Positions 34,040 through 50,464 of a stretch of DNA of 50,464 bases are shown here, one piece after another. Under the pieces are notes generated by a model, which saw nothing but the letters and a program-made list of their open reading frames with translations, was not told the DNA's origin and did no database searches. The position numbers were made by a program, and so were the translations under genes. The stretch lies in NCBI GenBank assembly GCA_000378865.1, contig KB900444.1, positions 14,230-64,693 on the forward strand, read 5' to 3'. The number at the start of each line of letters is the position of its first letter. The first letter of the stretch is position 1. The DNA comes from an actinobacterium SCGC AAA278-I18. Lineage in GTDB: Bacteria; Actinomycetota; Actinomycetes; Nanopelagicales; Nanopelagicaceae.

Positions 34040-34908
34040 ATTTACTACGTGATAATTTAAAAACTTTAGGTCTGTCATCAAATCACATATTTCAGCAGAT
34101 TAAAGATACCATCGGTGAAGATCTAGCAGGGGGTGAGGACATTACCTCTGTTGCCACAATTGCTGATTCACAGGTTATAAGTGCTGATTTTGTTGCCCGC
34201 TCAACTGGAGTTGTTAGTGGGTTGCATGTAGCAGCTGCAGTACTTGAGTACTGCGGAGTTAATCATTATGAGGTCCTAGTCGATGAGGGCGCTAAGGTTT
34301 CAGCTGGCAAGGTGTTAATTACTGCTCAAGGAAATACAAGAAAATTATTATTAGCAGAACGAACTGCGCTTAACTTTCTATCCCATTTAAGCGGTATTTC
34401 AACCCTTACTAGCCAATGGGTTGCAGCTGTTGCTGGTACAAAGTGTGAAATTAGAGATACCCGTAAGACCACGCCAGGACTTCGCCAGTTAGAAAAGTTT
34501 GCAGTTCGCATGGGAGGTGGGACAAACCACCGGGTATCACTATCGGAGGCTGCTCTTATTAAAGATAACCACATTGTGGCAGCTGGCAGTATTACTGCAG
34601 CATTTAAGTTGATTAAAGAGAAGTATCCAAACAAATCAGTTGAGATTGAAATAGATTCAATTAATCAGTTAGCCGAAGTAATCTCACTCAAACCAGATTT
34701 GATTTTATTAGACAATATGAGTGTTGAGCAGTGCAAAGAGGCTGTTTTAAAAACTGCCGGATCGGTAAAACTTGAAGCCTCTGGTGGGCTAGTGATTAGT
34801 AATGCAAAGGCTTATGCAGATACTGGAGTTAATTACCTAGCAGTTGGCGCGCTAACTCATGCTGCTCCAGCTTTTGATATTGGCCTAGATTTTAGAAAGG
34901 GAAAGTAA
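34036..34908 (+). CDS. nadC: Nicotinate-nucleotide pyrophosphorylase (quinolinate phosphoribosyltransferase)
   Basis: Converts quinolinate and PRPP to nicotinate mononucleotide in NAD synthesis. The 290 residues include EDLAGGEDITS, LLAERTALNFLSHLSGISTLT, DTRKTTPGLRQLEKFAVRMGGG with the Arg/Lys substrate pocket, ALIKDNH, and EIDSINQL with the end EASGGL. Its stop overlaps the next ATG by one base. The last 56 bases are repeated in inverted form at the window end (see the 95-bp repeat). In the minus-strand copy they precede intact coaX, which indicates that nadC-coaX is the native order. Confidence 0.96.
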   Translation: MNLLRDNLKTLGLSSNHIFQQIKDTIGEDLAGGEDITSVATIADSQVISADFVARSTGVVSGLHVAAAVLEYCGVNHYEVLVDEGAKVSAGKVLITAQGNTRKLLLAERTALNFLSHLSGISTLTSQWVAAVAGTKCEIRDTRKTTPGLRQLEKFAVRMGGGTNHRVSLSEAALIKDNHIVAAGSITAAFKLIKEKYPNKSVEIEIDSINQLAEVISLKPDLILLDNMSVEQCKEAVLKTAGSVKLEASGGLVISNAKAYADTGVNYLAVGALTHAAPAFDIGLDFRKGK

Positions 34909-34947
34909 TGTTACTTGCAATAGATGTTGGTAATACCAATACCGTAC
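34853..34947 (+). repeat. 95-bp inverted repeat, internal copy (nadC end + coaX start)
   Basis: Identical over 95 bases to the reverse complement of 50370-50464. It spans the last 56 bases of nadC and the first 13 codons of coaX. Identity stops at 34947 (next base C here, T in the other copy). The other copy ends exactly at the window edge. Confidence 0.97.
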
Positions 34948-35339
34948 CGGCATTAGCTAAGTTAGATATTGATGTTAGATCTTTTACCATGCTAGAACTT
35001 AATAGAATTGATAAAGCAATTAGATCTTTGACAAGTGATGTCGCAATTGTTGAGGTAAAGGGTGGAATTAATCGCCCACCACTTGAACTTGCTAATACTA
35101 AAGAGCTTTATGAAAAATTAGAAAAAGTGGCAGCAGATTTAGGACTTGCCCCTATCGGGCAAGCAAGTGTTGGCGGTGCTAGTGATGGAAATCTGGCAGC
35201 AGCAGCTGGCGCTAAAGTATTAGATGGTTTAGGTGCCGTAGGAATGGGTGCACATGCACCAGGGGAATCAATAAAAATATCAACAGTTGAGCCAAGAATT
35301 AAATTAACCACCGCTTTTATTAACGAGTTACTTAAATGA
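34908..35339 (+). CDS. Hybrid ORF: coaX start joined to C-terminal fragment of an M20-family peptidase
   Basis: The first 13 residues (MLLAIDVGNTNTV) equal the start of the CoaX at 49636-50409. From residue 14 the sequence is unrelated to CoaX and matches the end of M20 metallopeptidases of the glutamate-carboxypeptidase type: LDIDVRSF, then EVKGGINRPP, GGASDGNLAAAAGAKVLDGLGAVG and GAHAPGE with the last metal-ligand His. The N-terminal zinc-binding half is absent, so neither enzyme would work. The junction lies at 34947/34948. The M20 part is probably the true 3' end of a gene whose start lies elsewhere; it overlaps the XPB-type helicase by 4 bp as a real operon partner would. As written it should be treated as an artefact or a rearrangement scar, not a gene fusion. 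Confidence 0.85.
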   Translation: MLLAIDVGNTNTVPALAKLDIDVRSFTMLELNRIDKAIRSLTSDVAIVEVKGGINRPPLELANTKELYEKLEKVAADLGLAPIGQASVGGASDGNLAAAAGAKVLDGLGAVGMGAHAPGESIKISTVEPRIKLTTAFINELLK

Positions 35340-37341: not shown

Positions 37342-39696
37342 GTGCGTCTTAAATCCATATTACTTTCGATCGGGCTACTTTCTGTATTTCTGGTAAACCC
37401 ACTCTCACTCCCAACAGCTGAAGCTTTAGGAATAAAGGTGGCACCAGCTAATTGGGGATATACCTACGCAAGTAATAAAACTGTTTCTGTTCAGGCAACT
37501 CCTAGGGCGCCCTCGGCAAATATTGAGAAGAAGAGTAATTTTGTTATTAATTTTAATACCGTACCTGCCTTTGCCAAAGTGCCTATCCAAGCTGCTGTTG
37601 ATGTTTGGGCAGAGAACTTTTCATCTGCAGTTCCGGTAAATATAAATATTACTTGGGGCAGAGCTGCAAATTACGGGATTCTGGCTGCTGCTAGTGCAAA
37701 AAGTAACTATGCAAATTTTCCCAATGCTCCAGATAAAACTCTTTACTACTCAGCCGCTCTTGCTAACGCATTAGCTGGTAAAGATTTAGATACAACAAAA
37801 TCGGAAATGGAAATAACAATTACCTCTGATGCACCTTGGTACTACGGAACAGATGGTAAGTGCCCGCTAAAAAGTTTTGATTTAGAGTCGGTTATCTTGC
37901 ATGAAATGGGTCATGGCTTAGGTTTTATCTCTGGAAATTACTATGACGAATTCTCTGGCTTTGGCAGAATTGATCAACCCACAATATTTGATGCATATGT
38001 ACAACTACCTGATGGCAGGCGATTAGCAGATATGCCATCGCCAGCACTGGAGACTGGCAAAGCGCTTACCTCAACATTATTTTGGTCTGGTGATAATGCA
38101 GTTAAAGCAAATAAGGGAGTTAAGCCACTTTTATATTCACCAGCAATTTATGAAGTAGGTTCTTCAATAAGTCATTTAGATGAAAAAACATTTTCACAAT
38201 CTGGTGAGAATGCGGTTATGACACCAAACTTAGATTCTGGTGAAGTCTTTCATTTGCCTGGATCACTGCTACTAGCAATGATCGAAGATATGCGACAAAA
38301 GCCACCTATTGGTCTTGCGTTTGGCTCTCCATTGCCACCTCAAAATGTTAAGGCATTAATAAGTGATAAGAGTGCGATTGTTGAATTTGATCCACCTACT
38401 AATTTTAGGTCTGCTCAAATTTCAAAGTATGAGGTTAAAAATATGCAAACAGAGGAATCTGTTATCGTTACAGAAAGTCCAGCAATATTTACTGGACTAG
38501 TAAATGGAAGTAAGTACACCTTTTCAGTTTCTGCAACAAACACCTTAGGGACATCCAATACCGCTATTTCAAATGCGGTTGTCCCGCAGGCGGTGTGGAA
38601 AAGCACAATAATTGATAAAAGTGCTGATAGTAAATACCTTGCCAGCGGAGTTTACGCTGGCAAACCAGTAATTGCTTACAGCGATAGTAAAAATGGTGAT
38701 TTAAAGCTTGCCACTTATAGCAGTGGTAAGTGGAGTATTACTACAGTTGACGGAAACCAAGTGAGTATTGGTCGGACAAATAATAATGTCTCAGGTTATA
38801 TCTCTATGTGCACATCAGTTGTTGGTAAAACAAATTATTTGCATCTTTTTTATGCAGACCTTGTAGATAAAGATCTTCGATACGCGGTTTATAACGGTAA
38901 GTACTGGCTCTATGAAGTTGTTGATGGTGATGGTGGCGCTATTCAAGATTACAAAGAGTTTCCACGTGTACGAGGTGGCTCTGATGTATCAGTCTCTAGT
39001 GCATGCGCAGTAACTACTGATGGTGTGCAGGTTTTTTACCGTGATGAATCACAGGGAATTTTACTAGGAGCGGTTAAAGATAAAAATGAATGGCGGTATG
39101 AAATTGTTGACGGGGATAAAGATACACAGGAGCGCACTACTGGCGATGTAGGTTTTCATTTAAAAGCAACCACCGTTGGAAAAAAGATTCACTTAATTTA
39201 TGACTCTGTTAGAGGTTTTGATCTTGACCGAAATGTCACTAGGGGCGATATTCGTTATGCCAGTAGGGGTAGTGCGCTTGTTGAGGATTGGGTATATAAA
39301 ACATTAGATGTACCAGCTGAAGGTGTATCGGTTGCTGGTTACGATGTTGGCGTATTTAATAGTAAGCGTAGCATAAACTTTAGTTGGTTCACTGCAAGTG
39401 GTCTCTCATTTCCAAATCCAAATCAGCTACGTTATAAAAATCTTACCGATGTAGTATTCACCGATGTGAGCAGTGCAAATTATGGAAAACCGAATTCGCC
39501 GGTATCGATAGATGAAAAATCAATTCTCTTTAGTTGCCAACTTCGACTTTGCTCAGTTGATAAGGCTGATAAAAAGATTTCTTTAATTTCAAGTGGAAGT
39601 ATCCAAAATGACGGACAAAGTAACTGGATCACTATAAATAAAGTTAGATACGCCGTTGCTGGTATATCTGGAAAATTAACTCTTTTTAAACCTTAA
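37342..39696 (+). CDS. Secreted HExxH metalloprotease with fibronectin III and C-terminal propeller-like region
   Basis: A 784-residue exported protein. A signal peptide (1-28, ending AEA/L) leads to a metalloprotease domain (about 50-330) with HEMGHGLGF, giving two zinc His and the catalytic Glu. A metzincin third ligand would be expected at the eleventh position, but Ser is there. GSSISHLDE followed by VMTP is a conserved pair in secreted HELGHGLGF-type proteases and may supply the third His and a Met turn. A fibronectin III domain follows (about 332-415). The C-terminal ~370 residues hold repeated short beta-strand units of the type SGKWSITTVDG, KYWLYEVVDG and NEWRYEIVDG, probably a beta-propeller for binding. 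Start GTG. The substrate may be external protein. Confidence 0.75.
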   Translation: MRLKSILLSIGLLSVFLVNPLSLPTAEALGIKVAPANWGYTYASNKTVSVQATPRAPSANIEKKSNFVINFNTVPAFAKVPIQAAVDVWAENFSSAVPVNINITWGRAANYGILAAASAKSNYANFPNAPDKTLYYSAALANALAGKDLDTTKSEMEITITSDAPWYYGTDGKCPLKSFDLESVILHEMGHGLGFISGNYYDEFSGFGRIDQPTIFDAYVQLPDGRRLADMPSPALETGKALTSTLFWSGDNAVKANKGVKPLLYSPAIYEVGSSISHLDEKTFSQSGENAVMTPNLDSGEVFHLPGSLLLAMIEDMRQKPPIGLAFGSPLPPQNVKALISDKSAIVEFDPPTNFRSAQISKYEVKNMQTEESVIVTESPAIFTGLVNGSKYTFSVSATNTLGTSNTAISNAVVPQAVWKSTIIDKSADSKYLASGVYAGKPVIAYSDSKNGDLKLATYSSGKWSITTVDGNQVSIGRTNNNVSGYISMCTSVVGKTNYLHLFYADLVDKDLRYAVYNGKYWLYEVVDGDGGAIQDYKEFPRVRGGSDVSVSSACAVTTDGVQVFYRDESQGILLGAVKDKNEWRYEIVDGDKDTQERTTGDVGFHLKATTVGKKIHLIYDSVRGFDLDRNVTRGDIRYASRGSALVEDWVYKTLDVPAEGVSVAGYDVGVFNSKRSINFSWFTASGLSFPNPNQLRYKNLTDVVFTDVSSANYGKPNSPVSIDEKSILFSCQLRLCSVDKADKKISLISSGSIQNDGQSNWITINKVRYAVAGISGKLTLFKP

Positions 39697-39841: not shown

Positions 39842-41065
39842 CTAGTTAATCAACACTAAGCCAAAACTTATACCCGAGTCGGTGATTAATACCGTGCCAA
39901 TTTCATTATTGGCAGCAATCGCAACCGCAGGTGAGGTAAGTGAGTAGGAAGTGATCACTTCACCCTTCTTACCTAATTCTAAAACAACTGGGGTGGCACT
40001 CTTTGGCTTCCAAGCAGGCACGCCTTTAATCACACCGGATGAGGTAAAACTTGCCCAGGAATTTTTGCCGGTTGCAACTAGCGCAGCTGATTTAGCTAAG
40101 TACCTCGTGTTCCAAGTTGGCTTACCAAGGGATGAAAACTTTGTAATCGCAGCCTCAGTTTTATTTGAGTATGAAACTTTTCCACCTTGCAATAATCCGG
40201 TATCAATTGAATTCCAGCTTCTGGTAGTACTTTTTAATGTTGCTCTTGCAACTTGTTGTAATGCTCCTGTTGCTGAAATCTTTAGTGAAATAGCATCTAA
40301 CTTGCTAAGTGGTTTAATTTTTAGTAATAATTCCCCACTCACACCAACCGCGGTAATACTGCCATCTTTATTAAGAATTGCTGAATTAATCTGTGTTGAT
40401 TTAACTCCATACTTAATTATCGGCAAGAATGTACCCGTTTTACTTGCACTTAAATAAAATCCTTTGACCTCTTTCTTTTCGTAATAATCTCCAATAATTG
40501 CTACACCCTCGGCTGTGATCAGTAATTGTTTAGGGTTAACAACACTTTCGGCTATGAATTCAAATGTATTTAGTAAGGTGCCAGTACTACTTATCTGCCA
40601 TATTTTAATTCGATTAAGTGGTGTGTTAATTGGTTGGGCTGGATCTAGTGTCACATTGTCCGGATTTAAGACTTTTGTTGGCGTGCTAGATGCGGTTGGT
40701 GTTACCAAAGATGTACTTGCACCTACCACCCAGATGCTGCCATCTATATCTATGGCAACTGAGGATGCTATTTCATTTGCTGCCCCACCAAGACGTAGGT
40801 TCCAAAGTGGTGCACCTTGCGCGGTATATGCTGCAATAAATCCATCACTTAACCCACCAAGTGGTCCATTTATCCATGCTGAGCTAGCAGATTCAGTTGT
40901 GCCAACTAAAACAATACTTACTGGAGTCAAGGCTAGATCACTCACCTGATCTGAGTTTAAATAGGCAAGCTCCACAACTGGCTTTAGATTCTTCATTACT
41001 ACAGCGTTTGCAGAGCTTGGTAATAAGGAAAAAATAAATATGACTACAAGAAAAACTCTTTTCAA
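39842..41065 (-). CDS. Secreted propeller-like protein of unknown function
   Basis: A 407-residue exported protein with a signal peptide ending near SANA (residue 21). The rest is a run of beta-rich repeats with recurring GSIWVVGAS, GVAIIGDYY and GSITAVGVSG elements and GAPLWNLRLGG, resembling SBBP/PQQ-like propeller blades. No catalytic motif is seen. The start is TTG 41065, with AGGAG five bases upstream, and the frame overlaps the proC stop by 4 bp, so it is translated with proC. Ligand and role are unknown. It may be a cell-surface or secreted binding protein. Confidence 0.7.
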   Translation of the reverse strand: MKRVFLVVIFIFSLLPSSANAVVMKNLKPVVELAYLNSDQVSDLALTPVSIVLVGTTESASSAWINGPLGGLSDGFIAAYTAQGAPLWNLRLGGAANEIASSVAIDIDGSIWVVGASTSLVTPTASSTPTKVLNPDNVTLDPAQPINTPLNRIKIWQISSTGTLLNTFEFIAESVVNPKQLLITAEGVAIIGDYYEKKEVKGFYLSASKTGTFLPIIKYGVKSTQINSAILNKDGSITAVGVSGELLLKIKPLSKLDAISLKISATGALQQVARATLKSTTRSWNSIDTGLLQGGKVSYSNKTEAAITKFSSLGKPTWNTRYLAKSAALVATGKNSWASFTSSGVIKGVPAWKPKSATPVVLELGKKGEVITSYSLTSPAVAIAANNEIGTVLITDSGISFGLVLIN

Positions 41066-41930: not shown

Positions 41931-42791
41931 ATGGCAACGACAAAAAGTGTGAAATCTAAGTTATCTAAGAATGAGGTCGCCCCTAATTTTGTGCGGGATT
42001 GGGTTGAGTTTGTAAACCCAGAAAATCCTGAGGAGATCTTTAAATGCGATATGACCTGGCTTACCTCATATTGGCAATGTATTTACGGCAATGGCTGCTG
42101 TGGCATTGATGCAGATAAACCAGATGCTGGTTGCTGTTCAGATGGTGCTTACTACACCAGTAAAGATGATGAGGAGCGAACACTAAGGGCTGCTAAAAAA
42201 TTAACTAAGGCAACCTGGCAGTTTTACGATCAAGCTCGTCCTAAGAAATCTGGTGGAAAACTACAAATTAGTGAGATTGGTTTAGATAAAGATCGCAAGA
42301 CTAAAAAGATTAATGATTCTTGTATTTTTCTAAATCGTGTTGGTTATGAGGCTGCTGGCTTTACTGGAAACTCAGGTTGTGCGCTGCATCATTTAGCAGA
42401 AAAAGAGGGTGTGCATGTTGTTGAAACAAAACCTGATATTTGTTGGCAACTACCACTGCGCCGCTCTTGGGAGACTCGTGAATTTGGTGACAAAGAAATA
42501 ACGGTTGTAGTAATTGGTGAGTATGAGAGATTAGCTTGGGGAGAAGGCGGCGCAGATTTTGATTGGTACTGCACAAGTAACTCAGAGGCACACACTGGCA
42601 AAGTTCCGGTTTACAAATCAAGTAAGGTTGAATTGATTGCCATGATGGGTAAGGGTGGGTATAGAGAGCTTGCTAAATTATGTGATAACCGGATGGCAGC
42701 AATTGCAGCAACCCGTAAGGAACAAAAACGACGTGAGTTGCCACTATTTGTAATCCACCCCGCAACAAAGGCTGTGCAAGAGCAGCGATAG
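41931..42791 (+). CDS. Conserved cysteine-rich protein of unknown function next to radA
   Basis: A 286-residue soluble protein without signal peptide. The Cys pattern includes CDMTW, a WQCIYGNGCCGID segment and AGCCSDGAYY in residues about 39-75, then CIFLNR, SGCALHH, DICWQL, WYC and LCDNR. Such clustering suggests a metal site or iron-sulfur cluster, as in YkgJ/DUF3109-like proteins, but I cannot name the family with confidence. It lies 26 bp before radA on the same strand, each with its own TANNNT element, so a link to DNA repair or redox sensing is possible from context only. Confidence 0.7.
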   Translation: MATTKSVKSKLSKNEVAPNFVRDWVEFVNPENPEEIFKCDMTWLTSYWQCIYGNGCCGIDADKPDAGCCSDGAYYTSKDDEERTLRAAKKLTKATWQFYDQARPKKSGGKLQISEIGLDKDRKTKKINDSCIFLNRVGYEAAGFTGNSGCALHHLAEKEGVHVVETKPDICWQLPLRRSWETREFGDKEITVVVIGEYERLAWGEGGADFDWYCTSNSEAHTGKVPVYKSSKVELIAMMGKGGYRELAKLCDNRMAAIAATRKEQKRRELPLFVIHPATKAVQEQR

Positions 42792-49635: not shown

Positions 49636-50409
49636 TTAATTACGCTCATGTACTAAGCGCAATCCGATTAATGTCAGATCTGGTTCATGGAACTCAATCA
49701 TCTCGCTAATTCCAAGGACAAGCGGTGCAAGGCCACCAGTTGCTATTACACAAACCTCACCAGAGTCTGGATATAGATCAGCTAACTCATCAATAATCCG
49801 ATTTACTAAGCCATCAACCTGACCGGCAAATCCATAGATAGTTCCTGATTGCAACGCCTCAACAGTGTTCTTACCAATTACTGATTCTGGTTTAACCAAC
49901 TCAACTTTGCGAAGTTGGGCAGCACGTGCTGCTAAGGCCTCAACTGAGATCTCAATACCAGGGGCAAGTGCACCTCCTAGGAACTCACCCTTAGGTGAGA
50001 CCACATCTAAATTAGTTGAGGTACCAAAATCAACCACAATTGCTGGACCATCTGAGCCATATAAAGTAAATGCAGCAAGTGAGTTAACAATTCGGTCGGC
50101 GCCTATCTCTTTAGGATTATCAACTAATAATGGAACACCAGTTTTAACCCCTGGCTCAATAATTGTGGTGCGGATGTCACTGAAGTGATCTGCTACTAAC
50201 TTTCTAATCTCTCGCAATACTGCCGGCACAGTTGAACAAATTGCCACACCGGTAATATCAAAGCCATCAACTAATGCTGAGTACTGCAGCCACAATTCAT
50301 CAGCGGTATCTCTTGGGTCAGTCTTTACCCGCCAAGATTGTTCTAACTTATCCTTGTTAAATACACCAAGTACGGTATTGGTATTACCAACATCTATTGC
50401 AAGTAACAT
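49636..50409 (-). CDS. coaX: Type III pantothenate kinase
   Basis: Phosphorylates pantothenate, the first step of CoA synthesis, following PanC. Marks of the ASKHA-fold CoaX family: DVGNTNTVLGVF (phosphate-binding), then CSTVPAV, NPKEIGADRIVNSLAA, IVVDFGTSTNLDVVS and GGALAPGIEISVEALA. At 257 residues it is full length. The start and upstream 55 bases are identical to the nadC-coaX junction at 34853-34947, meaning this copy carries the native upstream nadC end. Its minus-strand orientation relative to nadC at 34036 conflicts with the usual nadC-coaX-lysS order and exposes the rearrangement described in the findings. Confidence 0.95.
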   Translation of the reverse strand: MLLAIDVGNTNTVLGVFNKDKLEQSWRVKTDPRDTADELWLQYSALVDGFDITGVAICSTVPAVLREIRKLVADHFSDIRTTIIEPGVKTGVPLLVDNPKEIGADRIVNSLAAFTLYGSDGPAIVVDFGTSTNLDVVSPKGEFLGGALAPGIEISVEALAARAAQLRKVELVKPESVIGKNTVEALQSGTIYGFAGQVDGLVNRIIDELADLYPDSGEVCVIATGGLAPLVLGISEMIEFHEPDLTLIGLRLVHERN

Positions 50410-50464
50410 TACTTTCCCTTTCTAAAATCTAGGCCAATATCAAAAGCTGGAGCAGCATGAGTTA
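50370..50464 (-). repeat. 95-bp inverted repeat, terminal copy (nadC end + coaX start)
   Basis: Reverse complement of 34853-34947 with no mismatch. Bases 50410-50464 encode the end of nadC on the minus strand. The repeat reaches the last base of the window, so its full extent is unknown. Confidence 0.97.

Follow-up and report, generated by a model that had tools for sequence, protein, structure and literature searches.

A predicted exported zinc protease with a leishmanolysin-like catalytic domain and a C-terminal propeller in the order Nanopelagicales

A 784-residue protein encoded in the stretch of DNA analysed here is the product of a core gene; its architecture, built on a known fold, was encountered in the order Nanopelagicales only. 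The stretch, referred to below as the window, comprises 50,464 nucleotides of contig KB900444.1 (assembly GCA_000378865.1) of the actinobacterium SCGC AAA278-I18. Conserved residues and predicted structures point to one best explanation overall, namely that the protein is probably exported and active as a zinc endopeptidase, with a propeller that attaches to a partner on or close to the cell surface. In the proposed mechanism H187, H191 and H278 would hold the zinc, E188 would serve as the general base, and peptide bonds would be cut in the way usual for metzincins. The propeller, through an invariant stretch in its third blade, would bind one specific partner, which could be a substrate protein or a polymer of the envelope; this binding would keep the enzyme at or near the cell. 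The features of the locus are as follows.

37342..39696, forward strand: gene for the predicted exported metalloprotease, 784 aa, GTG start; orthologues align end to end
37342..37425, forward strand: Sec-type signal peptide by simple rules, residues ~1-28, with an AxA-like site before LGIK
37537..38307, forward strand: metzincin-type zinc-peptidase domain, residues 66-322, from a domain model and a leishmanolysin match
37900..37923, forward strand: HExxHxxG zinc-binding motif with the putative catalytic Glu, residues 187-194, invariant in orthologues
38170..38184, forward strand: SHLDE, residues 277-281, with the putative third zinc ligand H278, from orthologue conservation
38218..38220, forward strand: M293, putative Met-turn methionine, kept in orthologues
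38326..38577, forward strand: fibronectin type III (Fn3) domain, residues 329-412 (PF00041)
38593..39693, forward strand: predicted C-terminal seven-bladed beta-propeller, residues 418-784, from predicted strands and structural matches
39028..39072, forward strand: invariant blade-3 motif QVFYRDESQGILLGA, residues 563-577, the most conserved 15-residue stretch
39842-41065, reverse strand: secreted neighbour, 407 aa, fast-evolving and convergent with the protease; its SBBP propeller-repeat match is below threshold

The first-pass annotation, made from the letters alone, had proposed a large secreted HExxH protease with an Fn3 domain in a streamlined genome, and each part of this description was borne out. 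The reading frame is intact over its 784 codons, with no internal stop. By simple rules the N-terminus is hydrophobic in all 54 full-length sequences (the window protein and its orthologues) and is followed by an AxA-like site in 51 of them, in keeping with secretion. The same rules detected no lipobox, no C-terminal LPxTG and no later transmembrane stretch in any of the 54; since no anchor was found, retention at the surface would have to come from the propeller alone. A single Fn3 domain scores 32.8 bits over residues 332-405, above the Pfam gathering cut-off of 25, and was matched in 53/54 sequences at E<=1. The host assembly totals 944 kb in 54 contigs at an estimated completeness of 76%, and three single-contig genomes of the same genus are 1.2 Mb in size. 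A scan for promoters and terminators gave null results, with 7 promoter-like sites against a shuffle mean of 8.3, and 3 terminator-like sites against a shuffle mean of 2.1 (sd 1.6).

Zinc site and catalytic fold

The family alignment retained 80 loci of at least 434 confirmed from at least 595 candidates. Conservation was read from the 54 full-length sequences and from 133 distinct orthologues; the latter derive from 201 loci collected at E<=1e-60, which gave 172 rows and 136 distinct sequences, less three outgroup rows (L056, L171 and L172). Orthologues of the 133 that fall outside the denominators of 130 and 131 used below have gaps at the positions concerned. The motif HEMGHGLGF occupies residues 187-195, and H187, E188, H191, G192 and G194 are kept in 130/130 distinct orthologues covering the site. 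A mutated HExxH in homologues, which the first-pass annotation had named as grounds for abandoning the assignment, was thus looked for and found in none of these 130.

The metzincin consensus is given as H-E-x-x-H-x-x-G/N-x-x-H/D in PMC11674741, which also treats latency and the Met-turn. The consensus third ligand, a His or Asp three residues past the Gly, is lacking in the protease, as had been remarked at first pass: at the canonical position (residue 197, ten past H187) at least 90% of the 54 sequences have Ser, and a distal invariant His is present instead. This is H278, which together with D280 is kept in 54/54 full-length sequences and 130/130 distinct covering orthologues, and which is the only invariant His in the alignment besides those of HExxH. 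The spacing from H191 to H278 is 83-91 residues (about 86) in the 54 sequences. The segment VMTP lies at residues 292-295, and its methionine, M293, follows H278 by 14-15 residues in the 54; it is kept in 53 of these and in 130/131 distinct covering orthologues, L055 being the single orthologue with Leu at that position. The alignment at HExxH extends to eight more distant homologues from outside the family, and it includes the SHLDE-like region where the printed rows reach it. The earlier suggestion that a distal SHLDE...VMTP pair completes the site therefore holds up well, and the third zinc ligand is most likely supplied by H278. With its HExxHxxG motif and a Met after the putative distal ligand, the sequence carries these metzincin features. 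The Ser at the canonical ligand position and the Leu of L055 might suggest a pseudo-enzyme whose HExxH domain is merely structural, but the four residues that would bind zinc and carry out catalysis are kept throughout the covering orthologues, which makes this explanation very improbable.

In leishmanolysin the third His stands far downstream of HExxHxxG, behind a long insert, and is followed by a Met-turn. The layout of the protease fits this arrangement and, as far as sequence and model can tell, would be that of leishmanolysin-type metzincins. Leishmanolysin (gp63, family M8) shares with it the HExxHxxG motif, the distal third His and the Met, and the long M8 insert has its counterpart in the stretch between H191 and H278. 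The Cys-switch propeptide of M8 is not found here: no Cys precedes residue 66 after the signal peptide in any of the 54 sequences, and this lack of a Cys for a prodomain switch, by which latency would be explained, counts against the preferred explanation. The C-terminal domain and membrane anchor of gp63 are replaced by the Fn3 domain and the propeller.

The catalytic domain was modelled alone (residues 50-326, using 37 of the 54 sequences), because the match lists of the whole model were filled by matches to the propeller and Fn3 domain. The model has a pLDDT of 90.4 and a pTM of 0.89. Among the matches listed, its best structural match by VIA-align was leishmanolysin, 1LML, with a Z of 14.1, aligning at 3.9 A over 184 residues with 17% identity; the aligned range, protein residues ~60-318, spans both halves of the predicted zinc site. 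The other 49 matches listed, which include matrixins, karilysin and snapalysin, have Z of 8.8-9.8. The predicted model thus has the metzincin catalytic fold, as judged by its matches to 1LML, matrixins and snapalysin. Foldseek alone returned nothing significant for the domain, the best match being astacin at E 0.23.

No M8, M10 or NF038122 profile matches the window protein above its curated cut-off. PF01457 (M8) is absent from its Pfam matches and was found in none of eight genomes selected from the family (E<=10), and formal M8 membership was rejected because this profile has no match; since sequence profiles fail to place the protease in M8, we call it leishmanolysin-like rather than a member. 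NF038122 (metallo_LGF) scores 44.6 bits in the window protein against a cut-off of 80; it matches 54/54 sequences at E<=1 (best 3.6e-18), covering the motif region, and has no match above cut-off in 198 genomes of the phylum. A matrixin assignment from the weak PF00413 match was also rejected, as the score of 14.2 bits falls short of the gathering cut-off (24) and the structure is closer to leishmanolysin. The matrixins (M10, including MMPs and karilysin) share the metzincin fold, but their HExxHxxGxxH third ligand is absent here. Matrix metalloproteases join a catalytic metzincin to a downstream propeller by which substrate is recognised. The protease has the same general layout, a catalytic domain and a C-terminal propeller, with seven predicted blades where hemopexin has four.

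The C-terminal propeller

The whole-protein model has a pLDDT of 88.2 and shows 28 predicted strands in residues 420-783, which were read as seven sets of four; the blade count, for which the first-pass annotation had proposed structure prediction, is taken from these strands. That annotation had also described repeated WxYE/TVVDG-like strands of no family that it could name. No Pfam model names the repeat region of the window protein, and the predicted propeller now adds a fold to that description. A repeat profile was built from 15 segments of L197 and L198, one of them an overlapping duplicate. It matches 54/54 sequences with a median E of 9.9e-13 and a worst E of 2.8e-5, against a best E of 0.21 in 216 shuffled controls, and finds three or four blades per printed sequence, mainly the first ones. 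Judged by these matches, the strands are true repeats, and the C-terminus consists of diverged versions of a propeller repeat that other genomes of the phylum also carry. L197 and L198 come from other genomes of the phylum and are apparently exported; by eye, they show seven W-x4-VD...SYYD...LKYA repeats.

The listed structural matches of the C-terminal part are propellers, with Z up to 28.0, and include the bacterial seven-bladed lectins PLL3 (Z 27.2), PHL (26.8) and CV39L (25.9). These matches could be taken to mean that the protein is an adhesin or lectin-like protein whose propeller binds algal, cyanobacterial or particle glycans while the peptidase clips the attachment. The likeness to the PLL/PHL lectins is one of fold: unrelated propellers score as high or higher, so that the fold is silent on the ligand, and a lectin identity for the propeller was rejected on this ground. 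In sequence, the propeller profile matched a single unrelated chain in the PDB at E<=10 and no lectin. In addition, acI cells are free-living plankton, and the adhesin explanation is decidedly unlikely. The binding sites of PHL are treated in PMC5584973.

The most conserved part of the protein lies in blade 3. The stretch QVFYRDESQGILLGA scores 4.10 bits, compared with 3.64 for the active-site stretch 183-197, and Y566, R567, D568, Q571 and G572 are kept in 131/131 distinct covering orthologues. Compared with the generic repeat YYDxxNGDLKYA, blade 3 has an R and a Q at fixed places, and these suggest one specific binding site. The protein as a whole is under purifying selection by pairwise codon comparison, with dN/dS of 0.034-0.137 in eight close pairs that were chosen by hand, with gapped codon columns dropped and two pairs at dS >1.2; the values for blade 3 are 0-0.052, from 38 codons only.

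Distribution and gene neighbourhood

Named relatives in the family alignment are mostly freshwater actinobacterial MAGs, including Nanopelagicales and Nanopelagicaceae bacteria, together with actinobacterium IMCC19121, Candidatus Planktophila versatilis and SCGC AAA044-N04; the name acI/Nanopelagicales is taken from their records. Four MAG records titled Bacteroidetes, Bifidobacterium breve or Streptomycetaceae (L061, L062, L067 and L105) carry the acI gene at 46-69% identity, which suggests that their titles are mislabelled. In the order Nanopelagicales (acI), the peptidase profile matches 237/251 genomes and the propeller profile 234/251; when completeness of at least 90% and contamination of at most 5% are required, the counts are 107/108 and 105/108. 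The gene is present in 16/16 genera, and all genomes in these order-wide searches belong to family f1. One match is found in most genomes; a few genomes have two, perhaps because the gene is split, and G060 has two full-length matches.

Genus g17 accounts for ten of the 12/251 genomes that lack both domains, and g16 for the other two. A clean deletion in G395, with the XPB-like helicase and proC genes abutting, was considered and rejected, as the contig begins inside the N-terminus of the protease by translation and the gene order is altered in its genus. The contigs of G470 and G348 end just after or inside XPB. The remaining nine genomes have no proC match and no full-length XPB match, so that they lack the region as a whole, either because it was not assembled or because it was lost; such a possible loss would fit the clustering of the absences in g17. 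If these absences are true losses, the gene is dispensable there.

Outside the order the domain combination was not encountered in the genomes drawn. Of 246 genomes drawn across the class, 29 have the peptidase, and seven of these lie outside the family; the propeller was found in 22, every one a member of the family. Among 198 genomes drawn across the phylum, a full-length propeller was found in the window's own genome only, with partial matches at E<=0.1 in seven others, two of them strong. The homologue search proposed at first pass thus places the joined peptidase and propeller in Nanopelagicales only, within these draws. The three outgroup rows, from the same class, have a homologous catalytic domain (213-217 bits) with HExxH and the distal HLDE aligned and Fn3 after it. 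They differ in what stands in place of the propeller, which is 14-17 Fn3 stretches in L171 (partial as fetched) and L172, and Fn3 plus a sub-threshold Big_13 match in L056. L171 and L172, of family f14, are very long homologues.

All 49 loci longer than 12 kb carry homologues of the XPB-like helicase and of proC, and 48 of them a homologue of the secreted neighbour; the gene order is the same in the 40 printed loci among them. Median identity to the window is 83.3% for XPB, 50.7% for proC, 49.0% for the protease and 30.5% for the secreted neighbour. It is possible that the secreted neighbour is a partner of the protease. In genus g17 (L205, L223 and L224) the order is rearranged, and the protease adjoins a homologue of the gene at 41931-42791; the secreted neighbour has no match in these three stretches.

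Elsewhere in the window, an exact 68-bp inverted copy is found at 34880-34947 and 50370-50437 (nadC end and coaX start), and is probably an assembly chimera or an inversion joint. The ORF at 34908-35339 is a chimera of the coaX start and the C-terminal part of an M20-type peptidase; L062, L065, L080 and L098 have a full M20 gene at this spot.

Role of the protease

The first-pass annotation had suggested protein use or surface interaction as the role, and both are no more than candidates. The role that we tentatively favour, at somewhat short of even chances, is the degradation or trimming of proteins at the surface or just outside the cell, feeding peptide and amino-acid uptake. According to PMC5574706, transporters for peptides and amino acids are encoded in acI genomes, for which dipeptide use is predicted, and that paper also deals with peptidase-linked nutrients; the transporters and predicted dipeptide use favour nutrition. 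Subtilases (PF00082), common alternative exoproteases and the only protease family surveyed as a competitor, were found in 3/18 chosen genomes, and their small number was counted in favour of the preferred explanation. Against the nutritional role, a gene that serves nutrition ought to differ more from niche to niche than this near-universal one does.

The main alternative is that the protease processes the cell's own surface proteins. As envelope housekeeping, it would trim or shed them with its propeller held on a cell-wall polymer or a self protein. That the gene is near-universal, mostly single and kept in order, that it is convergent with a secreted protein conserved in nearly all of the long loci, and that one invariant blade suggests one constant ligand all speak for this, and near-universality together with a single fixed propeller site favours a housekeeping partner. 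No anchor or wall-binding domain was recognised, however, by Pfam or simple rules, and no candidate substrate was found; the secreted neighbour also evolves far faster than the protease and is without a match in L205 of g17. We regard housekeeping as possible but doubtful. A more specific and rather unlikely version holds that this is an order-defining acI surface protease, a bacterial leishmanolysin-type enzyme that acquired an MMP-like layout and whose function, in the most abundant freshwater bacteria, is core envelope processing and not scavenging. Its asymmetric blade, conserved above the active site, would then recognise a single constant partner on the cell.

No paper evidently about this protease was found among the matches listed from the open-access PMC literature. 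The one paper there that joins Nanopelagicales or Planktophila with the word metalloprotease is PMC7677278, where that word occurs in the reference list only. PMC5301498 describes the first complete acI genomes, and its main text has no word beginning with peptidase, protease, proteolytic, secreted or signal peptide. Peptidases are treated in PMC6411800.

If the protease is the exported zinc endopeptidase that we favour, the bacterial metzincins would gain a leishmanolysin-like branch with an unusual domain combination. The gene also offers a concrete starting point for how the abundant freshwater acI actinobacteria obtain or remodel protein. Because a 784-residue exported protein is near-universal in these pared-down genomes, it is probably basic to the handling of proteins outside the cell or on its surface, and proteolysis in these places probably belongs to the basic biology of the order.
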